Source: Aquificaceae bacterium (GTDB taxonomy: Bacteria > Aquificota > Aquificia > Aquificales > Aquificaceae). From it: a stretch of DNA of 64,000 nt. Position 1 is the first letter of the stretch, and every line of letters begins with the position of its first letter. Position numbers and translations under genes: made by a program. The stretch spans positions 1 through 64,000 of the forward strand of contig JALWEG010000001.1 in assembly GCA_027014155.1 (NCBI GenBank). The letters run 5' to 3'. Below the pieces are notes generated by a model. That model searched no databases and had not been told where the DNA came from. It saw only the letters and a program-made list of their open reading frames with translations. Positions 1,876-12,447 of the stretch are shown one piece after another.

Positions 1876-2142
1876 ATGATTGTGAAGTATTTGGTTGCCT
1901 ACGATGTTTCCGACACCGGCAGGAGGAGTAAACTCTCAAGGTTGCTGAGCAAATACGGATACCGTATTCAATTGAGCGTCTTCTATCTTCCGGATATAAG
2001 CCGTGGTGAACTGGACAGGCTTTACATGGAAGCAAAAAGGTTGGTAAATCCAAGGCAGGACAGGGTGTTTTTCTATCCGGTGGAGGAGATAGAGGTTTTT
2101 GAAGGCTATCCCATAGAGTTTTGGAATATAGAGATAATATGA
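1876..2142 (+). CDS. cas2: Cas2 (first copy), CRISPR adaptation protein
   Basis: 88 residues, a full-length Cas2. Cas2 forms the central dimer of the Cas1-Cas2 spacer integrase. Seen: the ferredoxin-like first strand with the conserved aspartate (YLVAYDVSDTGRRSK, residues 5-19) and the RIQLSVFYL strand near residue 31. It begins 57 bp after csm5, and its stop overlaps the cas1 start by 4 bp (ATGA at 2139-2142). A second, different Cas2 follows cas1, so this operon holds cas2-cas1-cas2. Confidence 0.92.
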   Translation: MIVKYLVAYDVSDTGRRSKLSRLLSKYGYRIQLSVFYLPDISRGELDRLYMEAKRLVNPRQDRVFFYPVEEIEVFEGYPIEFWNIEII

Positions 2143-3017
2143 GCCACAGGCGTTTTCTCGTGGCCTTCGGAAGAGCGAACGTAAACAAGAAGGGTGAACG
2201 GCTGAGGGTGTCCAACGGTTCGGGTTCAACGGAGGTGCCGGTGCGATATTTAGAGGCTCTCGTGTGTGTAGGTTCGGCCAATATGAGTGCCGAGGCAATC
2301 AACCTTTTGACTTTGAACAGAGTTCCTGTGTACTTTATGTCAAAGTTTGGCACACTTAAAGGTTCACTTCTCCCTCAGACCATCTCAAGCAGAAACAAAA
2401 ATAGGTTAAATCAATACGGTGCCTTTAAAAACAAAAGGCTTAAGGTTGCCTGCCGCATAGTAATAGAGAAAATACTTTCAGTTGAGAGACTCTATGAACT
2501 TAATCTTAGCGCTGCAAAGAGGAGAGTTTCTAAAGCAAGAAGTATTGAGGAGCTTATGGGTATTGAGGGTGAAGTATCCAGAAAGATGTTTGATAAGTTC
2601 AGGGAAAATATAGCCGGCAGTAGCCTGGACTTTAAAGGCAGGTCTTACAGACCACCTACAGACCCCGTAAACGCTTTGCTCAGCTTGTCTTATACACTTG
2701 CATACTCACTTGCACTTCCGTTGGTTCTGTTTCTCGGATACGACCCCTATATTTCATTCTTACACTCAAAGAGAGGAACCCATGCATCTTTTTGCTCGGA
2801 CGTTATAGAACCCGTGAGACCCATTATCACAAAGAGGTTGGAGGAACCTATAAACTTGAAAACTTTCTCAGAGAAGGATTTTCTCAAGTCCGGAAAGGGA
2901 TTCTATCTTAAAAAAGACAGCTACAACAAGTTTTTAAACTGGTTTGAAGGTATAAAGGACGAAGTCTTAGAGGGTATAAAGGCCTCGCTCGTAGGTATAG
3001 GAGATAGTATGAGATGA
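2139..3017 (+). CDS. cas1: Cas1 CRISPR integrase
   Basis: 292 residues from ATG 2139. That start is preferred over the in-frame TTG at 2121 because it gives the ATGA overlap with cas2. Cas1 inserts new spacers at the leader-proximal repeat. The metal-binding residues are visible: glutamates in GIEGEVSRK (residues 141-149), His209 in FLHSKRG, and Asp221/Glu224 in CSDVIEPVRP. The N-terminal beta domain has the usual VGSANMSAEAINLL block near residue 44. The stop overlaps the second cas2 start by 4 bp, so the three adaptation genes are likely translationally coupled. Confidence 0.95.
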   Translation: MSHRRFLVAFGRANVNKKGERLRVSNGSGSTEVPVRYLEALVCVGSANMSAEAINLLTLNRVPVYFMSKFGTLKGSLLPQTISSRNKNRLNQYGAFKNKRLKVACRIVIEKILSVERLYELNLSAAKRRVSKARSIEELMGIEGEVSRKMFDKFRENIAGSSLDFKGRSYRPPTDPVNALLSLSYTLAYSLALPLVLFLGYDPYISFLHSKRGTHASFCSDVIEPVRPIITKRLEEPINLKTFSEKDFLKSGKGFYLKKDSYNKFLNWFEGIKDEVLEGIKASLVGIGDSMR

Positions 3018-3259
3018 AAAGATATGTAGCTTGTTATGATGTTTCTTCCAATTCAAAGCGGACAAAGATTATGAAACGTTTGAAGAACAAAGGCTTTCAC
3101 GCACAGTTTAGCTTCTTTGAGCTGGAAGGAGACGTGTCTGTAGATGAAATAAAGGAGTTGCTTGATACCGCAGACAGGTTTGCACTCATAAGGTTGAGTT
3201 CTAAAAGTGAGATAAGGCGCATAGGCAGTCTATCTGAAGATACAAACTGGGTGCTGTAA
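3014..3259 (+). CDS. cas2: second Cas2-like protein, divergent from the first
   Basis: 81 residues. The N-terminus (RYVACYDVSSNSKRTKIMK) has the Cas2 first strand and conserved aspartate, and the FHAQFSFFEL strand follows near residue 29. The rest matches the 88-residue Cas2 upstream only loosely. The C-terminus (GSLSEDTNWVL) is unlike that of the first copy. It overlaps cas1 by 4 bp and ends 3 bp before the degenerate distal repeat of array 1. Either the pair forms a heteromeric Cas2, or one copy serves another role; nothing in the sequence decides. Confidence 0.85.
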   Translation: MKRYVACYDVSSNSKRTKIMKRLKNKGFHAQFSFFELEGDVSVDEIKELLDTADRFALIRLSSKSEIRRIGSLSEDTNWVL

Positions 3260-3262
3260 AGA

Positions 3263-3739
3263 ACAGCAATCCCTTTCTTTCTAGGGATAACTTCAACAAA
3301 GCTCTACAGGCTAAAAGCCAGACTGGAAAGAAAACAGTCGCAATCCCTTCCTTTGCAGGGATAACTGCAACAAAGATTAAAAAAGAATTTGTCAGGGAGG
3401 CAAGCAAGTCCAGTCGCAATCCCTTCCTTTGCAGGGATAACTGCAACCTTCTTTTCTAGAGACGTATAGGACCTCTTGCCTGTCGCAATCCCTTCCTTTG
3501 CAGGGATAACTGCAACGAAACAAGATATGGTTAACACGACGGTTGCCAATAGGAAAGGTCGCAATCCCTTCCTTTGCAGGGATAACTGCAACGATATGTA
3601 ATTACCCCAACAACCGGGATCTGCTATGCTATGGTCGCAATCCCTTCCTTTGCAGGGATAACTGCAACAAAATACCGGACTGGCACTTGAAGCGGCTACG
3701 CTTTGTCGCAATCCCTTCCTTTGCAGGGATAACTGCAAC
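3263..3739 (-). CRISPR. CRISPR array 1: seven 35-bp repeats, six spacers
   Basis: Repeats lie at 3263-3297, 3337-3371, 3413-3447, 3482-3516, 3558-3592, 3634-3668 and 3705-3739. Spacers are 39, 41, 34, 41, 41 and 36 bp. On the + strand a repeat starts GTCGCAATCC and ends GATAACTGCAAC, with an internal ATCCCT/AGGGAT inverted repeat. The first repeat is degenerate, marking the distal end, and the leader is on the right, so transcription is leftward. In that orientation the repeat ends in ATTGCGAC, a typical 8-nt crRNA 5' handle. Confidence 0.98.
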
Positions 3740-3974
3740 CCTTCTTCTGGACATATTGAGGCACAAGGGTTTCAGAAGGCGGGAAGGCAAGTTTTTACCA
3801 TAAAGTTCAAATTTTAACGCTCTATGAGCGACTTCCTTCCCGAGTGCATGGCTCTAAGCTCAGAGCCGTTTTTAGCCCTATTCAGTTGCCAAGGTAGCTG
3901 GGCGCTCCTGCGTCGCCCCTTACTGGCTCTTATTATACACGCATTTCCAGAAAGTCAAATTATGATATTCCTCA
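3740..3974 (-). promoter_or_regulatory. CRISPR leader of array 1 with internal promoter
   Basis: 235 bp adjoining the last canonical repeat, 95 percent identical (11 mismatches, no gaps) to 12213-12447 beside array 2. On the - strand it contains TTGACT (3958-3953), 15 bp, then TATAAT (3937-3932), giving a predicted start near 3925 and about 185 nt of transcribed leader before the first repeat. It also contains hairpins GGCTCT-N6-AGAGCC (3850-3867) and GGGCG-N9-CGCCC (3900-3918), and a CTTCTG/CAGAAG inverted repeat next to the first repeat. The 64 bp from 3975 to the next gene hold nothing I recognise. Confidence 0.85.
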
Positions 3975-4038: not shown

Positions 4039-4926
4039 ATGATGAGAAAGCTCGGGAAGAAAAAACTCACGGCTGTAATTATAGTCTTGGCATTACTGAT
4101 TAGGTTCCTACCCCAGGAGCTGCCTCTCTTAGACAAATACGGCGACGAGTACTTTAACTCGGCGATAGTCAAAGCCGTCACTACATACGCGGCTGCCAGA
4201 ATCATTAACGCCATAGTGTCGGTGGCAAAGGAAACGGAGGTGGAGGTCGGTTTTTCCTTCCTATTCTCGGGCTCCTCTACCATCCATGTAGGTCAGTTTC
4301 TTGACCCCGTTGACGATGCGGTAGAGCGCCTATCAACGGTTCTTACGACTTCCATAGCCTCTTTGGGACTGATGAAGATATCCAAAGAGATACTCCAGTT
4401 CTACACACCCAAGCTCATCTCTTACATGCTGCTGCTTCTGATACCCGGTATATGGTGGTTGAGGTTCAGGAAGTTCTCAAGGTTCTTGATGAATCTCATG
4501 GTACTGCTTCTCGCTTTGCGATTGGCTCTACCGGTAAGCGGCATCGTGAACAACACTATATATGCAGATGTATTTGAGCCTCAGATTCAGGAGTCCCTTG
4601 AAATCCTCAGCCTTGTGGGAGATGACGAGGAGCTTTCGGCCGACGAGGATAAGGGATTTATAGATAACTTGAAGGATAAGGCAGATGCATTGAAAGAGGG
4701 AGCCAAGCGTCTGTGGCAAAATAAGGGAGAAATAGTTAACGCCTTGGTTGGCCTCTTGTTGCTTTACATAAGCATGGTAGTCGTGCAGGTTATACTGATA
4801 CCCCTTATCGTAATCTGGGTCTTGATAAAGCTGGTGAATACCCTCTTTGAGAAACGGCTCTCCATAGAGGACGTTATGGAAGCTCTGGGAAGAGAAAGGC
4901 AAAAGGAGGGAAGCGATGTCAAGTGA
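4039..4926 (+). CDS. membrane protein of unknown function, paired with a PrsW-like protease
   Basis: 295 residues, no family recognised. A basic N-terminus (MMRKLGKKK) precedes a first membrane segment at about 10-26. There are further hydrophobic stretches near 130-165 and 235-270. Between them is a soluble, acidic loop (about 185-225, with DDEELSADEDKG). The C-terminus is charged. The stop overlaps the start of the PrsW-like gene (ATG 4916), and an AAGGAGGG ribosome site for that gene sits inside this one, so the two are coexpressed. It lies directly behind CRISPR leader 1. A partner or substrate of the protease is a reasonable guess, but only a guess. Confidence 0.6.
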   Translation: MMRKLGKKKLTAVIIVLALLIRFLPQELPLLDKYGDEYFNSAIVKAVTTYAAARIINAIVSVAKETEVEVGFSFLFSGSSTIHVGQFLDPVDDAVERLSTVLTTSIASLGLMKISKEILQFYTPKLISYMLLLLIPGIWWLRFRKFSRFLMNLMVLLLALRLALPVSGIVNNTIYADVFEPQIQESLEILSLVGDDEELSADEDKGFIDNLKDKADALKEGAKRLWQNKGEIVNALVGLLLLYISMVVVQVILIPLIVIWVLIKLVNTLFEKRLSIEDVMEALGRERQKEGSDVK

Positions 4927-5701
4927 GAAGAAGAAGTTTTTCATAATCCAAGTGATACTTATACTCGTTTCCCTCTTCATAATGGTTGCGTTCGGCGTAG
5001 AAGAAAAGAGGATTTTCTTCATATTCAAGTACGAGAAATATACCACTCAGTTTTTCGCTTCCGTAGCCTTCATCGTGGCCTCAATCTATATGCTACTGCT
5101 CACCTATTGGTATAACAACGAGGACAACTCCTTCAGATGGAGATTGTCCCTTGAGCTTCTGTTTATTTCAGGAACGCTGTCCGTGCTGTTTTCTTTAATC
5201 TTGTACCGAATCCTTACCCCAATATTGATGATGGACCCAACTTTAAAGCTTTTAACCTCAGCCGGTGCACATGCAGGGTTGGTTGAGGAAGCGGGCAAGT
5301 TGCTTGCAGTGCTTGCCTTACCGACCGTCAGGAGATTCATAAGAGACGGCAGGACGGGGCTTTATGCGGCAACGCTCTGCGCACTCGGCTTTGCCTTTAT
5401 AGAGAACATAAGCTATTTCACAAGGTTTGAGTCAGTTCTATATACACGCTTTAATCCCGGACATGCGGTTTTTTCCTCTATATGGGGCTACGCTCTTGGC
5501 AGGCTGTATGCCGGGGAGATAAGGCTTTCCGACTTCGCGAAATACATGGCGCTGGGCATGCTCCTGCATGCAAGCTGGAACTATTTAGCCAGCCTCCACC
5601 AGTTGGCTTTCTGGATTTTATACATACTCGTCTCCGTATACGGACTTGTGTACATAAAGAGAAGGCTGAGTGAGAGTCCGAGGACAGCGGCAGCGAATTG
5701 A
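4916..5701 (+). CDS. PrsW-like intramembrane metalloprotease
   Basis: 261 residues with about seven membrane segments. Motifs of the PrsW (M82) family, related to Abi/CAAX proteases, appear in order: VEEAGKLLAV (about residue 122), ALGFAFIENISYF (about 157), PGHAVFSSIWGYALGR (about 181) and GMLLHASWNYL (about 212), supplying the conserved EE, EN, H and H. In Bacillus, PrsW makes the site-1 cut in the anti-sigma factor RsiW. Here the gene ends 37 bp before an operon encoding a sigma-like protein and its likely inhibitor, which makes a role in sigma control attractive but unproven. Start ATG 4916 follows AAGGAGGG. Confidence 0.8.
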   Translation: MSSEKKKFFIIQVILILVSLFIMVAFGVEEKRIFFIFKYEKYTTQFFASVAFIVASIYMLLLTYWYNNEDNSFRWRLSLELLFISGTLSVLFSLILYRILTPILMMDPTLKLLTSAGAHAGLVEEAGKLLAVLALPTVRRFIRDGRTGLYAATLCALGFAFIENISYFTRFESVLYTRFNPGHAVFSSIWGYALGRLYAGEIRLSDFAKYMALGMLLHASWNYLASLHQLAFWILYILVSVYGLVYIKRRLSESPRTAAAN

Positions 5702-5737: not shown

Positions 5738-6238
5738 ATGTTCAAGTTTGAGGAGAGCGTTTGGGAACGTGTATCCTTCCCGGAACTTTCTCTGGGCCAG
5801 TACGATGAAGAGAGGGTATGGTATCACATAGAACCCAAGGGGCGTGCGTGGAACATTAAGAAGAAAAGGCCTTTTATAGTGGTCAAATGCACTCAAAAAC
5901 ACGTTTATCTGCTTCTTTTGACCACCCTGGAGCTTAACGTGTACAGGTGCAAGCTTGATAGAGCCTACGGAATAGGCACCTTTTTACCTGAGGTGCTATT
6001 AAAAGAGTGCAAGATTAAGGAAAGAAGATGCCGCTGGATGGGTGAAAGGTCTCGCATATTTAAAAGAAGGTTGGGTAAAAACGAGTGCAGGATAGTGGTT
6101 AGAATCTCCAAAAAGCTGCTTGCCAAGAATTCTACCCTGTGCGGGGAGTGTAAGGAAAGCGTATTTGATGACCAGGTTAGGTTTATAGTAGAGGAGGAGC
6201 TTGAGGGTTGGAAGCTAAGGAATTCGGGGAGCTTGTAA
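5738..6238 (+). CDS. small MazF/PemK-like protein at the head of the calp operon
   Basis: 166 residues, basic, not assignable to a named family. Two blocks recall the MazF/PemK SH3-like fold: a KKRPFIVVKCTQKHVYLLLLT strand pair (residues 42-62, like the RPxxVVS block of MazF) and FDDQVRFI (143-150, like the DQIRTV segment). It also carries a CGEC pair of cysteines near 135-138 and other scattered cysteines that might bind metal. Its 3' end overlaps calpS by 31 bp. In the studied Sulfurihydrogenibium module only CalpT is the MazF homologue, so this would be an additional component. The fold is inferred from short motifs only. Confidence 0.5.
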   Translation: MFKFEESVWERVSFPELSLGQYDEERVWYHIEPKGRAWNIKKKRPFIVVKCTQKHVYLLLLTTLELNVYRCKLDRAYGIGTFLPEVLLKECKIKERRCRWMGERSRIFKRRLGKNECRIVVRISKKLLAKNSTLCGECKESVFDDQVRFIVEEELEGWKLRNSGSL

Positions 6239-6879
6239 AAGCTCTATTTGATGGCACGATAGACAACAGAAGGTATCAGAAGCTATTTAGCTACCTTGCG
6301 GGCATAATAAATAGAAAGAGCAAGGGAAACCTGAACTACCAAGACATCAAGGACCTAACGAGCGCCTTCATCCTTAAGCTTTTAGAGAATAAAGAGAGGG
6401 TTTCAACTTTGCTAAGTGAGCCTTCGGAGCTGAGGGCGTATATATCCACCTCCGCCCGCAACTTCTTAATAGATTTCTTAAAGAAGGACAAGAGCAGGAA
6501 GTTTGAGATAGCGGAATCGGACATGTCGCAGGAAGAAGAAGAAAAAACACCCTTTATGGATAGGGTGGCGGCACCTGAGATTGTTAGAACCTACGAGCTC
6601 ATGGAGCTTAAGGAAACATTCAAAAAGAAGGTAAAGACCGAGAACGTTAAGTATTTTTGCTACATGCTGGATTCAAAGAGGTATAAGTGTCTGTGGGGCA
6701 ATAAATCCGATGATGCTATCTACAAGGACGTATCGCGCAAAAGGCGGGTAGTTGAGGAATTCGGAGACGAGCTTAAGAGACTTGGGATTACGAGAGAGCT
6801 TATGTTGGAGTTTACCAAGGTAGTGCTGTCAGAAACCTGCGAAAAACTTCGTTTAGAGTTATGTAAGGAGGTGGAATAA
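6208..6879 (+). CDS. calpS: CalpS-like ECF-type sigma factor
   Basis: 223 residues from a TTG start at 6208, chosen because GAGGAGG (6191-6197) lies at the right distance. Residues about 25-95 resemble sigma region 2: QDIKDLTSAFILKLLENKE followed by LRAYISTSARNFLIDFLKK. The C-terminal part (about 135-200) would take the place of region 4 but is weak. In the described CalpL/T/S system, CalpS is an ECF sigma factor held inactive by CalpT and freed when CalpL cuts CalpT. Position (directly before calpT and calpL) and size fit that role. It overlaps the upstream gene by 31 bp and is 2 bp from calpT. Confidence 0.75.
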   Translation: MEAKEFGELVKALFDGTIDNRRYQKLFSYLAGIINRKSKGNLNYQDIKDLTSAFILKLLENKERVSTLLSEPSELRAYISTSARNFLIDFLKKDKSRKFEIAESDMSQEEEEKTPFMDRVAAPEIVRTYELMELKETFKKKVKTENVKYFCYMLDSKRYKCLWGNKSDDAIYKDVSRKRRVVEEFGDELKRLGITRELMLEFTKVVLSETCEKLRLELCKEVE

Positions 6880-6881
6880 AG

Positions 6882-7742
6882 ATGTCCCCCCTGCATGAAA
6901 TACTGGAGCTTTATAAAAGCGCTCTGAAACCCGAAGAGGACTACGAGGAGATACAAGGGCTGGACATAGAAGCTCCACCGCTACCGAAGGACGTATCTCC
7001 CAAAGAGGTAGAACCGGTAGAAGAACCCGAGGAGGGAGATGTGATAGAGATTTTCCCCAGCCCGGACGGAATGGAGATGTATCTTCTCGTATTCAGAATA
7101 TACGTAAACGGCTACGTTGAGTTGCTTCCGCTCTCAAAGTTTTGGGAATTGGCAACGCCCGACGACGTTCTCGTGAGCGTGAACGGGGAACATTTCATCG
7201 TAGAGACAGACCTTGGCTTTGAGGTTCCTTTGGAGAACTTCCCAAAAAGGTTCGGAAACAGGCGGATATTTAAGGTTGCACAGCTTACCCCTGAGCAGAT
7301 GCAGGAGGTAGACGATGTCTATGAAGGGAGGAAGAGGGGAGTTGGGGGTATGTGGGGAGGGGTTAAGGTGGAGTTTAAGACCCTTGAGAGCAAGAGTTAC
7401 TTCTCTATTTTCGTAGAAACGGTCGTGGAAGATGAAAGCCTTGCGGAGCTTAGTGCCTTCTTTGAAGAGCACAGAAGGCTTGCCTCCGTCGCAGGTGAGA
7501 AGGAACAGACTTGGGGTAGGAAGGGGGAAATAGAGTGGTTTTACGACTCTGAGACCCAAAGGCTAATTCTTCTCCCGGACAAAAGCCTTGTAGGAAAGGA
7601 GAAGAGGATTTTGCTTGAGGCAGGGGAGGATAGGATAGTCCTTTTTGAGGGTAAGCTTCCCGAAAAGATAGAACTCCCCCTTGCTCCCGAAAGCTACGAC
7701 TACTCTCTGCTTGAAGAATCACTGAGGATTGAAGATGTTTAA
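6882..7742 (+). CDS. calpT: CalpT-like MazF-fold protein, likely anti-sigma substrate of CalpL
   Basis: 286 residues, ATG 6882 after AAGGAGGTGG. Layout: an acidic N-terminus (1-50), a MazF/PemK-like segment (about 50-145, beginning EEGDVIEIFP), a basic-to-glycine linker (148-160, GRKRGVGGMWGG) and a beta-rich C-terminal domain (160-286). In the published system CalpT is a MazF homologue of about 33 kDa that binds the sigma factor CalpS and is cleaved by the cA4-activated protease. Size, fold hints and gene order agree. The exposed linker is a plausible cleavage region, but that is inference. Its stop overlaps the calpL start at 7735. Confidence 0.7.
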   Translation: MSPLHEILELYKSALKPEEDYEEIQGLDIEAPPLPKDVSPKEVEPVEEPEEGDVIEIFPSPDGMEMYLLVFRIYVNGYVELLPLSKFWELATPDDVLVSVNGEHFIVETDLGFEVPLENFPKRFGNRRIFKVAQLTPEQMQEVDDVYEGRKRGVGGMWGGVKVEFKTLESKSYFSIFVETVVEDESLAELSAFFEEHRRLASVAGEKEQTWGRKGEIEWFYDSETQRLILLPDKSLVGKEKRILLEAGEDRIVLFEGKLPEKIELPLAPESYDYSLLEESLRIEDV

Positions 7743-9426
7743 AGTTCTAAACGAGTCCCAAAAGATAGCTCTGCTTAAGGATTTCCTCAGAAAACCATCG
7801 GCTATATCCGCTCGGGACATTGATAGGCTTTTGGAGAGCTTCCCCTTTGAGAGCGCTCGGCTCAATTACCTGAGCCTTCAGGTCTTCAGAGCGAGGAAGG
7901 ACATAGTCCCTCCGGAAAAGCTTTCTTCCAAGCTGGGGATTAATACGGAGACTGCCAAAGAAATCCTCGGTTCTGAGGAGAGGTATGCCGTATTTCCGGT
8001 GGTTAATCCGGGGAATAGAAAGGCGCAGCTGGTGAAAGCTCTCCTGGTACCAATAAGAGGGGAGAGGGTTATTCTTATAGGTGGTGAGCCACCTGAGAAC
8101 CTAAGCCTCTTGGCTAAGCTCTCCGGAACCGGATTCGCAATAGCCTTTAGCTCGGAGTTTGACTGGAAGGGAAGCAGCTCTTACATGCTTTCCGTATATG
8201 CGTCTTTGGCCTTTCACGGCAAGTTTAGAGATTTGGCCTTCACGGGGGTTATAACTCCGGAAGGAGAGCTTGAAGAGGTGAGCTTTCTCAGAGAGAAGAG
8301 AGAGTTTTGCAAAAAAGAGGGAATCCCTCTCGTTTACCCCTCAAGTTGTATGAAAGACCTGAGGGACCTTGAAGGCTTTATCTTATCTCTTTCAATACCG
8401 CTCGCCTCTTTACCTTCAACAGATCCCTCTCCGTTCTTGAGGGAGTTCAAGTTTGAAGAGGCTTACATAAGAGATGTCTTTCATCTGTCTTACCCTCTGA
8501 TTTACGGAGAATCCTTTGAGGAAACTGTAGAATCCTTCGGCAACTTTGCAGATTGGCTTGAAGTTGTATCTACCCGGCTCAAGAGCATAAATGAGAACTA
8601 CCTACCGATTAAGGTGGGAATAACCAGCAAGGTTCTGGCAATGACATTTTACTTGGGTTCCGTGCTGGCAAAGTCAAGGCTTCCGGTTGATTTCTACCAG
8701 TACGACAGGGGAACCTATCGGGTAGCGTTTTCGCTTTCCAGCGACAGAGATGTGCCCGATACGCAAGCCGTGGAGAAGCTCGTTAGCGTCAGCAGACCTA
8801 AAGATGTTAAGGAGATATTCGTCAATCTCAAAACCAAGATAGAGGGAAGGGAAGATGCTCTTGAAATAAAGCTACCGGAGGGGGAACATCATGACGATAA
8901 CCTCCTTGAGCTTGCCTTCTACGTGAGCAGGGAGATAAAGTCGGTGGGAAGAGGATGCAAAAAGCTGCACCTGGAGGTTTCCAATCCCTTCTCCTTCGCA
9001 CTGGGGTATTTCTTGGAAGATTATGTCTGTCTTGAGCTTGTTCATAAAGGTAAAGTGGTCTATGCTCTCGCTCCTTCGGAAGACGGACATTTATACCTGC
9101 TGAACGCTTTCTCTCTCAATATGCTTGAAAAGGGTAAAGCGTTGGTGGATATAGAGGAGCTATCTATGCAAGAGGCGGTTAGAGTTCTTGATGGCGGATA
9201 TGAGTCTTATATATCCCACGGTGCTACAGCTCAGGTGCTATCTAAGATGCTCAGAAGGGAGGTTCAATTGAGGAGGGAGCCGATAAAGCTCAAAGCCGGG
9301 GACAGAGCTTTGGTGTTCCAGATAAAAAAACGACCCGCGGAGGGACAGGTGTTCACCGAGGAAGAGATTGAAGACATAGTAAAAGCCAACAGGTTCAGCT
9401 TTTTCCTGATAAAGGTTTTCTACTGA
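7735..9426 (+). CDS. calpL: CalpL: Lon protease-SAVED sensor fused to a DUF1874/AcrIII-1 (Crn2) ring nuclease
   Basis: 563 residues from ATG 7735, overlapping the calpT stop; a TTG at 7729 is the alternative. Residues about 85-222 are a Lon-type proteolytic domain. WKGSSSYM places Ser147 where Lon has its catalytic serine, and TGVITPEGELEEVSFLREK places Lys188 at the catalytic lysine. Residues about 235-450 form a SAVED sensor with two CARF-like halves (PIKVGITSKVLAMTFYLG near 291; VSNPFSFALGYFL near 415). Residues 452-563 match the DUF1874 family, AcrIII-1/Crn2 cA4 nucleases: YLLNAFSLNML (454-464), YISHGATAQVL with candidate catalytic His495, KLKAGDRALVF (518-528), and RPAEGQVFTEEEIE. So a cA4-switched protease would carry its own off-switch. 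It converges on hipB with a 32-bp overlap. Confidence 0.88.
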   Translation: MFKVLNESQKIALLKDFLRKPSAISARDIDRLLESFPFESARLNYLSLQVFRARKDIVPPEKLSSKLGINTETAKEILGSEERYAVFPVVNPGNRKAQLVKALLVPIRGERVILIGGEPPENLSLLAKLSGTGFAIAFSSEFDWKGSSSYMLSVYASLAFHGKFRDLAFTGVITPEGELEEVSFLREKREFCKKEGIPLVYPSSCMKDLRDLEGFILSLSIPLASLPSTDPSPFLREFKFEEAYIRDVFHLSYPLIYGESFEETVESFGNFADWLEVVSTRLKSINENYLPIKVGITSKVLAMTFYLGSVLAKSRLPVDFYQYDRGTYRVAFSLSSDRDVPDTQAVEKLVSVSRPKDVKEIFVNLKTKIEGREDALEIKLPEGEHHDDNLLELAFYVSREIKSVGRGCKKLHLEVSNPFSFALGYFLEDYVCLELVHKGKVVYALAPSEDGHLYLLNAFSLNMLEKGKALVDIEELSMQEAVRVLDGGYESYISHGATAQVLSKMLRREVQLRREPIKLKAGDRALVFQIKKRPAEGQVFTEEEIEDIVKANRFSFFLIKVFY

Positions 9427-9667
9427 GAGGCTCGCATAGGAAAGGCTCTTCTTTCCTGAATGGATTGAAGGGGGTAATGCATAGGTCATAACCCAAAACT
9501 CTGAGTATGTGTTCCATCTTCACGAACCTTATGCTTCCAAGCCTTCCGTTCTCAAGGTTGCTGATGACCTGCCTTGAGAGTCCGACCTTTCTTGCAAACT
9601 CTTCCTGAGTCCACCCCTTTTCCTTTCGCCTCTGCCTTATGAGCTTCCCGAGTCTTTCGTAGTCCAT
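9395..9667 (-). CDS. hipB: HipB-like XRE family antitoxin/regulator
   Basis: 90 residues. An XRE helix-turn-helix fills the N-terminal two thirds: IRQRRKEKGWTQEEFARKVG followed by LSRQVISNLENGR (about residues 9-42). A C-terminal tail follows. A GGAGG ribosome site precedes the ATG at 9667. It is 23 bp downstream of hipA, the reverse of the usual hipB-hipA order. Its last 32 bp overlap the end of calpL on the other strand. It is expected to bind HipA and repress the operon. Confidence 0.85.
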   Translation of the reverse strand: MDYERLGKLIRQRRKEKGWTQEEFARKVGLSRQVISNLENGRLGSIRFVKMEHILRVLGYDLCITPFNPFRKEEPFLCEPLSRKPLSGKS

Positions 9668-9690
9668 AGCTCACGCCTCCTTTACTCTTT

Positions 9691-10854
9691 TTAAGCGTGT
9701 GTGAGTGCCTTTTCCCACTCCTTGAGCATCTTGTTTCCTATCTCCCTAAAGCTCGGCTCTTCCTTCACGTATTCCTTTACTTCTTCCATCTCTTCCCTTA
9801 CGGCGACCTCGCACTCTTGGTAAAGCTCCTCAGCCTCTTCCTTGGACAGTCCGCAGAACCTCATGCCGAAATCCGTGAGTTTATCTCTACCGTGCCACCT
9901 CTTTGTGCCGTGCATAAAGAGTGCAGGCCTATCGTCGGGAACGTAAACTGTAGTGCACACCACATCGTAGGCGGGAGCGAGCCTTATCTCTGAAAAGTCG
10001 TCCCTGTATATAAGTCCAAAATTCTTTAAGTGAGCGTCTCCGTTTCTCAAGAGGAAGTTCATGACCATGAGCTTGTAGTAAGCCTTGAGGTCTTCCTCCG
10101 GAAAGGTGGAAAACAGTTTTATGACCTTTGCTATCTGCTCGTAGCTCCCTTCATACTTGGACTCCCTTACCTTACCGAGTAAGGAGGCTGTCTCCTCAAA
10201 TCCGAGGTATTCTCTGCCTGTTCTGTCGTAGGTGAATCTCTCTACCACGAGAAACTTACCACCCTTGGAAAGGTGTGTAGTGGGAGTCTTTATTCCCGCT
10301 CTCTTTACAGCTTTCATGCAAAGGTATTCATTCCTTGCAAGCTCAGGGTATTCGTTCCCGAAGGTTTTGATTATGTATTCCCTAATTTCAAGTGCGACCT
10401 TATTCTCAAGAGAGGCTATGGTCTTGGGTTGAACTCCCGAGATTGCGTTCTTGTAGAGGAAGATACTTAGCAAGAGTTTAAATGTATCCCATGTATCGTT
10501 CTCAAGCACTTCTTCAAGGGAAAGGACTTTATCTTCTTTGAGTCCTTCTTTGCCCTCAAGCATTATTCTTCCTTCCACTCCTGCGGCGAGGTAGTAGAGC
10601 ATGATAAAGTCGTCAGCCTTTCCCTCTCTCTTGTTTATCAGGTTTCTGAGAAGCTCAAATAGATAGCCTTCGGGAATGAAGGAATCAAAGAAAGGGTGTA
10701 GGTGAAAGCTGCTAAGGTAGATACGCTGTGTGTTTGGCATGGATAGGCAAAGGTGTGTATCCGCTTTGTCCGAGTATTCAAAGACATACTCTCTGCTTGA
10801 GTTCTCAAAGAGTATACCTATCAAATTTCCTCTGTGGAAAGCTTTTATGTCCAT
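9691..10854 (-). CDS. hipA: HipA family serine/threonine kinase toxin
   Basis: 387 residues, somewhat shorter than E. coli HipA (440). Kinase landmarks are present: SGVQPK (139-144, the P-loop-like segment), RNGDAHLKNFGLIY (270-283, catalytic loop) and LAPAYDVV (292-299, metal-binding aspartate). HipA phosphorylates glutamyl-tRNA synthetase and causes dormancy. The gene is first in a two-gene operon with hipB. A GTTTA-N9-TAAAC inverted repeat at 10859-10877, just before the start codon, is a candidate operator. Location between CRISPR parts suggests a defence or stabilisation role, which is inference. Confidence 0.9.
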   Translation of the reverse strand: MDIKAFHRGNLIGILFENSSREYVFEYSDKADTHLCLSMPNTQRIYLSSFHLHPFFDSFIPEGYLFELLRNLINKREGKADDFIMLYYLAAGVEGRIMLEGKEGLKEDKVLSLEEVLENDTWDTFKLLLSIFLYKNAISGVQPKTIASLENKVALEIREYIIKTFGNEYPELARNEYLCMKAVKRAGIKTPTTHLSKGGKFLVVERFTYDRTGREYLGFEETASLLGKVRESKYEGSYEQIAKVIKLFSTFPEEDLKAYYKLMVMNFLLRNGDAHLKNFGLIYRDDFSEIRLAPAYDVVCTTVYVPDDRPALFMHGTKRWHGRDKLTDFGMRFCGLSKEEAEELYQECEVAVREEMEEVKEYVKEEPSFREIGNKMLKEWEKALTHA

Positions 10855-11857: not shown

Positions 11858-11930
11858 AGTATATGAGAACTTCTATGGGGACCGGTTTCTGACATGTGAG
11901 GGTTAACATACAGATTGAACGTTGTGAAGA

Positions 11931-12212
11931 GATGCAATCCCTTAGTTTCCAGGGATAACTTCAACCCAGACTCTCAAACGGCAAACATAAGTTCGACACA
12001 ATCTATATGCCGAAAGAATGGCTAGAAGGGTCGCAATCCCTTTCTTTGCAGGGATAACTGCAACTTTCCCCCTCAGCTTGAGGGGAATGATCGAGATTCT
12101 GTCGCAATCCCTTTCTTTCCAGGGATAACTGCAACCGGCAAGAAGACGGAGTACTACCAGCTTCCTAACGGAAACGTGTCGCAATCCCTTCCTTTGCAGG
12201 GATAACTGCAAC
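11931..12212 (-). CRISPR. CRISPR array 2: four 35-bp repeats, three spacers
   Basis: Repeats lie at 11931-11965 (degenerate), 12030-12064, 12101-12135 and 12178-12212. Spacers are 64, 36 and 42 bp. The rightmost repeat equals the array 1 consensus. Moving away from the leader the repeats pick up 1-2 changes, then about eight in the last. Orientation matches array 1. The 64-bp distal spacer is far longer than the others. Confidence 0.96.
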
Positions 12213-12447
12213 CCTTCTTCTGAGAATATTGAGGCACAACGGCCTCAGAAGGCGGGAAGGCAAGTTTTTACCATAAAGTTCAAATTTTAACGCTCTATGA
12301 GCGATTTCCTTCCCGAGCGCATGGCTCTAAGCTCAGAGCCGTTTTTAGCCCTATTCAGTTGCCAAGGTAGCTGGGCGCTCCTGCGTCGCCCTTTACTGGC
12401 TCTTATTATACACGCGTTTCCAGAAAATCAAATTATGATATTCCTCA
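12213..12447 (-). promoter_or_regulatory. CRISPR leader of array 2, near-copy of leader 1
   Basis: 235 bp, ungapped, 11 mismatches to leader 1; six of these fall in the 32 bp next to the repeat. The - strand promoter is kept as TTGATT (12431-12426), 15 bp, TATAAT (12410-12405), and both internal hairpins are kept. The CTTCTG/CAGAAG inverted repeat beside the first repeat is also preserved, here extended by one pair. Identity stops sharply at 12447. The 54 bp from there to the next gene hold nothing recognised. Confidence 0.85.

Follow-up and report, generated by a model that had tools for sequence, protein, structure and literature searches.

The sequence analysed here, referred to as the window, comprises 64 kb (positions 1–64,000, forward strand) of contig JALWEG010000001.1 from Aquificaceae bacterium GCA_027014155.1, a heat-loving bacterium. 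An uninterrupted open reading frame at 7735–9426 (+), with an ATG at 7735 and a stop codon at 9424–9426, encodes a protein of 563 aa; in the mechanical ORF list, a TTG start occurs two codons before this ATG. The product is a Lon-SAVED protease of the CalpL type whose C terminus is extended in frame by a Crn2/DUF1874 domain. Its gene is the last of a complete Calp operon (166-aa orf, CalpS, CalpT, CalpL) that is located beside a type III-A CRISPR system.

The first gene of the operon (5738–6238, +) is conserved and encodes a product of 166 aa that matched the profile of its counterpart in ordinary Calp operons (E = 3e-11) and had no match in Pfam. It is followed by a gene encoding a CalpS-like ECF sigma factor of 223 aa (6208–6879, +; profile match to ordinary CalpS, E = 1e-19; TIGR02937 at E = 3e-5, under the curated cut-off). 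The gene directly upstream of the fusion gene, overlapping it by 8 nt, encodes a 286-aa homologue of the anti-sigma factor CalpT (6882–7742, +; profile match to ordinary CalpT, E = 5e-22), the partner postulated in the preliminary description of this locus. PADLOC Unk_02 was common to this protein and to the CalpT of contig C59, on which the same genome carries a type III-B-like locus with ordinary CalpL, CalpT, and CalpS. No sequence match to the window CalpT was found in the PDB, and its structural model (pLDDT 75) gave a weak match to a MazF/CcdB-like fold (E = 1e-3). By profile comparison, all three upstream genes matched their counterparts in ordinary Calp operons, among them the Sulfurihydrogenibium-type locus L113. 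At the eight other fusion loci with upstream DNA present, the sigma factor and CalpT genes occurred throughout and the 166-aa orf occurred at six.

Directly upstream of the operon, at 4039–5701 (+), lie a membrane-protein ORF and a gene encoding a PrsW-family intramembrane protease (PF13367, 3e-22). PrsW cleaves an anti-sigma factor in Bacillus. Neither gene was found at the other fusion loci. On the opposite side, HipB-like HTH and HipA-like genes (9395–10854, −) are convergent with the fusion gene, and the HipB-like HTH ORF shares 32 nt with the 3' end of the latter.

The type III-A genes in the window are csm4, truncated at the contig start, and csm5 (170–1818, +; TIGR01903 at 1e-9, below cut-off, and TIGR01899 at 3e-27). 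Cas2-cas1-cas2-like genes follow at 1876–3259 (+), as judged by sequence and by reciprocal matches to the same gene order at locus L036. Repeat finding identified a CRISPR array of seven repeats (3262–3744) and a second array of four repeats of the same family (11930–12217), so that the Calp module is bracketed by two arrays with the same repeat; a near-identical stretch of 277 nt (95%) after each array probably represents a leader. In the same genome, contig C25 carries cas10 (HD and intact GGDD), csm2, and csm3, and would fit upstream of the csm4 gene of the window, a join of contigs that we infer. At another fusion locus, L032, the fusion operon runs directly into cas10, likewise with an intact GGDD, followed by csm2–csm5 and a Csx1-like gene.

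Domain architecture of the fusion protein

The Lon protease domain (residues ~83–228; 7981–8418, +) was aligned with S152/K193 of SsCalpL, which identifies Ser149 (codon 8179–8181) and Lys188 (codon 8296–8298) as the Ser-Lys dyad. Lys188 had been named correctly before, whereas the serine previously given as Ser147 is Ser149. The dyad was retained in all 41 proteins compared, nine fusions and 32 ordinary CalpLs. The Lon part matched CalpL (7qda) among PDB sequences (E = 4e-13), PADLOC returned SAVED_LON_TM (E = 1e-32) and CRISPR-Lon (E = 3e-26), and profile-profile comparison of the fusion with CalpL gave E = 6e-43. An AlphaFold model of the 563-aa protein (pLDDT 87, pTM 0.74) matched the fold of CalpL 7qda over 500 columns (E = 7e-22) and that of CcaCalpL (E = 9e-17). 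The SAVED domain (residues ~229–449; 8419–9081, +), placed at residues 235–450 in the earlier reading, was recognized by its fold match to CalpL and to the viral vSAVED. The SAVED family model matched weakly (NCBIfam, 7.6e-4), since the second half of the domain is strongly diverged.

The C-terminal domain (residues 452–563; 9088–9423, +) matched PF08960 (STIV_B116-like) at E = 9.9e-20 and 71 bits, above the curated cut-off of 26 bits. Sequence matches in the PDB were STIV B116, SIRV1 ORF114, AFV3-109, AcrIII-1 (6scf), and Csx1-Crn2 (8y6z/8y7f), and the corresponding part of the AlphaFold model matched the folds of AFV3-109 (1e-7) and AcrIII-1 6scf (2e-7). Profile search and structure prediction thus both bear out the proposed DUF1874/Crn2 identity. 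The predicted active site comprises His495 (codon 9217–9219), R533, and E536, corresponding to the active-site residues H47, R85, and E88 of SIRV1 gp29. Across the aligned fusions, N457, S460, N462, H495, R514, Q529, R533, and E536, the equivalents of SIRV1 N8, S11, N13, H47, R66, Q81, R85, and E88, are invariant. The fold and all of these residues are shared with Crn2/AcrIII-1 proteins such as SIRV1 gp29 and STIV B116; in contrast to these small stand-alone proteins, the Crn2 of the fusion is a domain of a protease.

With respect to its Lon-SAVED order, Ser-Lys dyad, fold, type III CRISPR context, and the CalpT and CalpS genes directly upstream, the fusion agrees with the ordinary CalpLs SsCalpL and CcaCalpL, and it is accordingly a variant of CalpL, from which the intrinsic ring-nuclease residues described below are absent. 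Ordinary CalpLs, for their part, carry no Crn2 domain. The Csx1-Crn2 protein of Marinitoga likewise joins a messenger-activated effector and a C-terminal Crn2 in one chain. Its effector is a CARF-HEPN ribonuclease, however, while the N-terminal part of the fusion is Lon-SAVED. The Marinitoga protein also consists of 563 aa with His495; as the two proteins differ in the type of their N-terminal half, this agreement is a coincidence.

Distribution and phylogeny

The phylogenomic count located the fusion in nine of 136 Aquificota genomes (G000, G003, G012, G014, G019, G020, G028, G039, and G067). In G019 the gene is divided between two contigs, and G067 carries two complete copies and a fragment. 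Two complete fusion operons (L043 and L044) were observed in a single MAG, S141_94. A scan of one genome per species across 84,980 species, based on short conserved patterns that distant relatives would escape, returned full-length fusions solely in Aquificota MAGs. Nine complete, separately assembled copies and additional partial ones of the same architecture rule out a chance fusion or an assembly artefact.

In the tree of Lon-SAVED sequences, the fusions form one clade, set apart by a long branch (support 100/100). The Crn2 tree was weakly resolved and placed the fused copies near stand-alone Aquificota copies and apart from the main viral groups. Fusion Crn2 domains were about 33–40% identical to Crn2 of a phage collection; with a best match of 40% and a tree that, poorly resolved as it is, separates them from most viral sequences, recent acquisition from a virus is not supported. 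A scan of viral sequences for copies of the fusion gave matches to the Crn2 domain only. As a control, vSAVED (AcrIII-2) was sought in the phage collection and not found, and PDB 9r8s was used instead. In G033 (L039:1374–3275), a stand-alone Crn2 gene adjoins a divergent Csx1 gene (PF22230, 2e-30).

The SAVED domain of the fusions lacks the ring-nuclease residues of ordinary CalpL

The SAVED domain of ordinary CalpL is itself a ring nuclease that degrades cA4 (PMC11417357, PMC12409355). In SsCalpL, a composite site is formed between monomers, to which one face contributes H392 and the opposite face R361/K364/K366 (PMC11417357), and equivalent residues occur in CcaCalpL and viral AcrIII-2 (PMC12751052). 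K364E and H392A/E strongly impair the ring-nuclease activity of SsCalpL, and H345 supports cA4 binding and protease activity (PMC11417357).

We compared these positions, in SsCalpL numbering, between nine complete fusions and 32 ordinary CalpLs. H345 was present in all ordinary CalpLs and in none of the fusions, and H392, K364, and S451, each present in 30 of the 32 ordinary proteins, were likewise absent from all nine fusions. R361 occurred in 32/32 ordinary CalpLs and was kept in seven of nine fusions, indicating that the lower face of the site is not wholly lost. The pocket residue S391 is also replaced in the fusions. The SAVED segment is 114–125 aa long in fusions versus 130–155 aa in ordinary CalpLs. 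No substitute conserved histidine was found in the fused SAVED domain, where H250 and H437 are the only conserved ones and H437 aligns with SsCalpL H474, which is dispensable for cleavage. Given the shortened segment and the lack of a substitute, the loss of the residues does not depend on the exact alignment. H392 and K364 are a trait of the CalpLs studied so far and do not define them.

Where dS was measurable, omega was 0.13–0.17 for SAVED, within a range of 0.07–0.24 across all fusion domains. The SAVED domain is therefore under purifying selection and still needed, which rules out that it is decaying. The loss of SAVED residues and the gain of Crn2 fall on a single branch, and their association thus counts as one evolutionary event. 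The preliminary description had regarded ring-nuclease activity as a new addition to CalpL; as the SAVED domain of ordinary CalpL already possesses it, the residues point to a replacement instead. Judged by these residues, the built-in off-switch of SAVED appears to have been lost, with the fused Crn2 in its place. AcrIII-2 (PDB 9r8s), whose SAVED domain is related to that of CalpL, would be the mirror image of the fusion, since vSAVED has no Lon but retains the ring nuclease (PMC12751052), whereas the Lon-SAVED part of the fusion lost its residues.

Proposed mechanism and alternative explanations

We propose, with a probability of roughly two thirds, that in this CalpL-type CRISPR protease SAVED remains the sensor and the fused Crn2 replaces its lost off-switch; cA4 binding, CalpT cleavage, and cA4 turnover are predicted steps of this mechanism. 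Upon infection, Cas10 would produce cA4, and binding of cA4 by SAVED would lead to self-assembly of the fusion protein. Lon would then cut the anti-sigma factor CalpT, so that CalpS is freed and transcription is changed. The C-terminal Crn2, fixed 1:1 to the protease, would cut cA4 in place of the SAVED-SAVED composite site, and sensing and signal removal would be two sites competing for one ligand, as in Csx1-Crn2. The Marinitoga protein has a kcat of 8.8 per min and displays strong but time-limited activity, and its H495A variant acts longer (PMC7293037); the same 1:1 timer logic is expected here. The analysis supports the earlier idea of a self-limiting protease.

As H345 supports cA4 binding in SsCalpL and is lost in the fusions, the sensor role of the fused SAVED domain is not secured. 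Crn2 might itself be the cA4 sensor, its dimer bringing the proteases together while SAVED serves as a structural or filament element. The replacement of the pocket residues H345, S391, H392, and S451 would fit this explanation, as would the mean pairwise identity among fusions, which is highest for Crn2 (49%, versus 38% for SAVED). However, we consider it unlikely, as SAVED is under purifying selection and retains the CalpL fold, a fast ring nuclease would make a poor sensor, and it is the CARF domain that senses in Csx1-Crn2. The altered pocket might also reflect a changed ligand, be it a different cyclic oligoadenylate or some related messenger; Crn2 would then remove cA4 that is produced in parallel and serves mostly other effectors. 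Taken as a group, SAVED domains recognize a variety of messengers (PMC11229360), and cA4-type effectors occur in the same genomes (the ordinary CalpL on C59, the Csx1-like gene in L032). Yet no positive sign of another ligand was found, and permanent 1:1 coupling offers the greatest benefit if both domains act on one messenger, which renders this explanation improbable.

Even less probable is that SAVED retains ring-nuclease activity through an altered chemistry, with Crn2 as an additional, faster ring nuclease. The retention of R361 in most fusions would be in line with residual catalysis, and in SsCalpL the double change H345A/H392A partly restores cleavage relative to H392A (PMC11417357). 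All fusions have nevertheless lost both K364 and H392, changes at which strongly impair SsCalpL, and have no conserved histidine to substitute.

In CalpL, activation and signal removal share one composite site and are therefore hard to vary separately; in the fusion they appear to be uncoupled, so that effector and timer are separate but paired 1:1. The fusion would also allow one to ask whether it is the duration of the CRISPR transcriptional response or its threshold that the off-switch determines, a question left by PMC11417357. After Csx1, CalpL-type proteases would be the second class of effector joined to Crn2. Csx1-Crn2 was described as so far unique (PMC7293037), and the ring-nuclease survey reports seven Crn2 loci only and, in its accessible part, mentions no fusion other than that with Csx1. 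No CalpL-Crn2 fusion was known to the preliminary description, and we found no report of one in the open literature, which covered this survey, the AcrIII-2 and Crn4 papers, a type III effector survey, the 2025 CRISPR classification, and a CARF/SAVED review; subscription papers, preprints, and supplements lie outside this scope, so that priority is unproven.

Ordinary CalpLs without H392 in genomes carrying the fusion

The only two of the 32 ordinary CalpLs without H392 (AHH to APS) are L114 in G003 and L115 in G019, and both of these genomes also carry the fusion. Three genomes hold an ordinary CalpL together with the fusion, and the ordinary CalpL encoded in the genome of the window retains HH. 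If the losses were random among the 32 proteins, the chance of both falling in those three genomes would be 0.006, a figure to be read with the facts that L114 and L115 are sister sequences in the Lon-SAVED tree, so that the loss of H392 in ordinary CalpLs counts as one event, and that binning errors are possible. We tentatively suggest that an ancient Calp lineage may have split sensing and destruction of the messenger between two domains: SAVED could have lost catalysis after the capture of Crn2, and the ordinary CalpL that belongs to a second CRISPR system could, in two genomes, have lost its catalytic histidine because the fused Crn2 clears cA4 throughout the cell.
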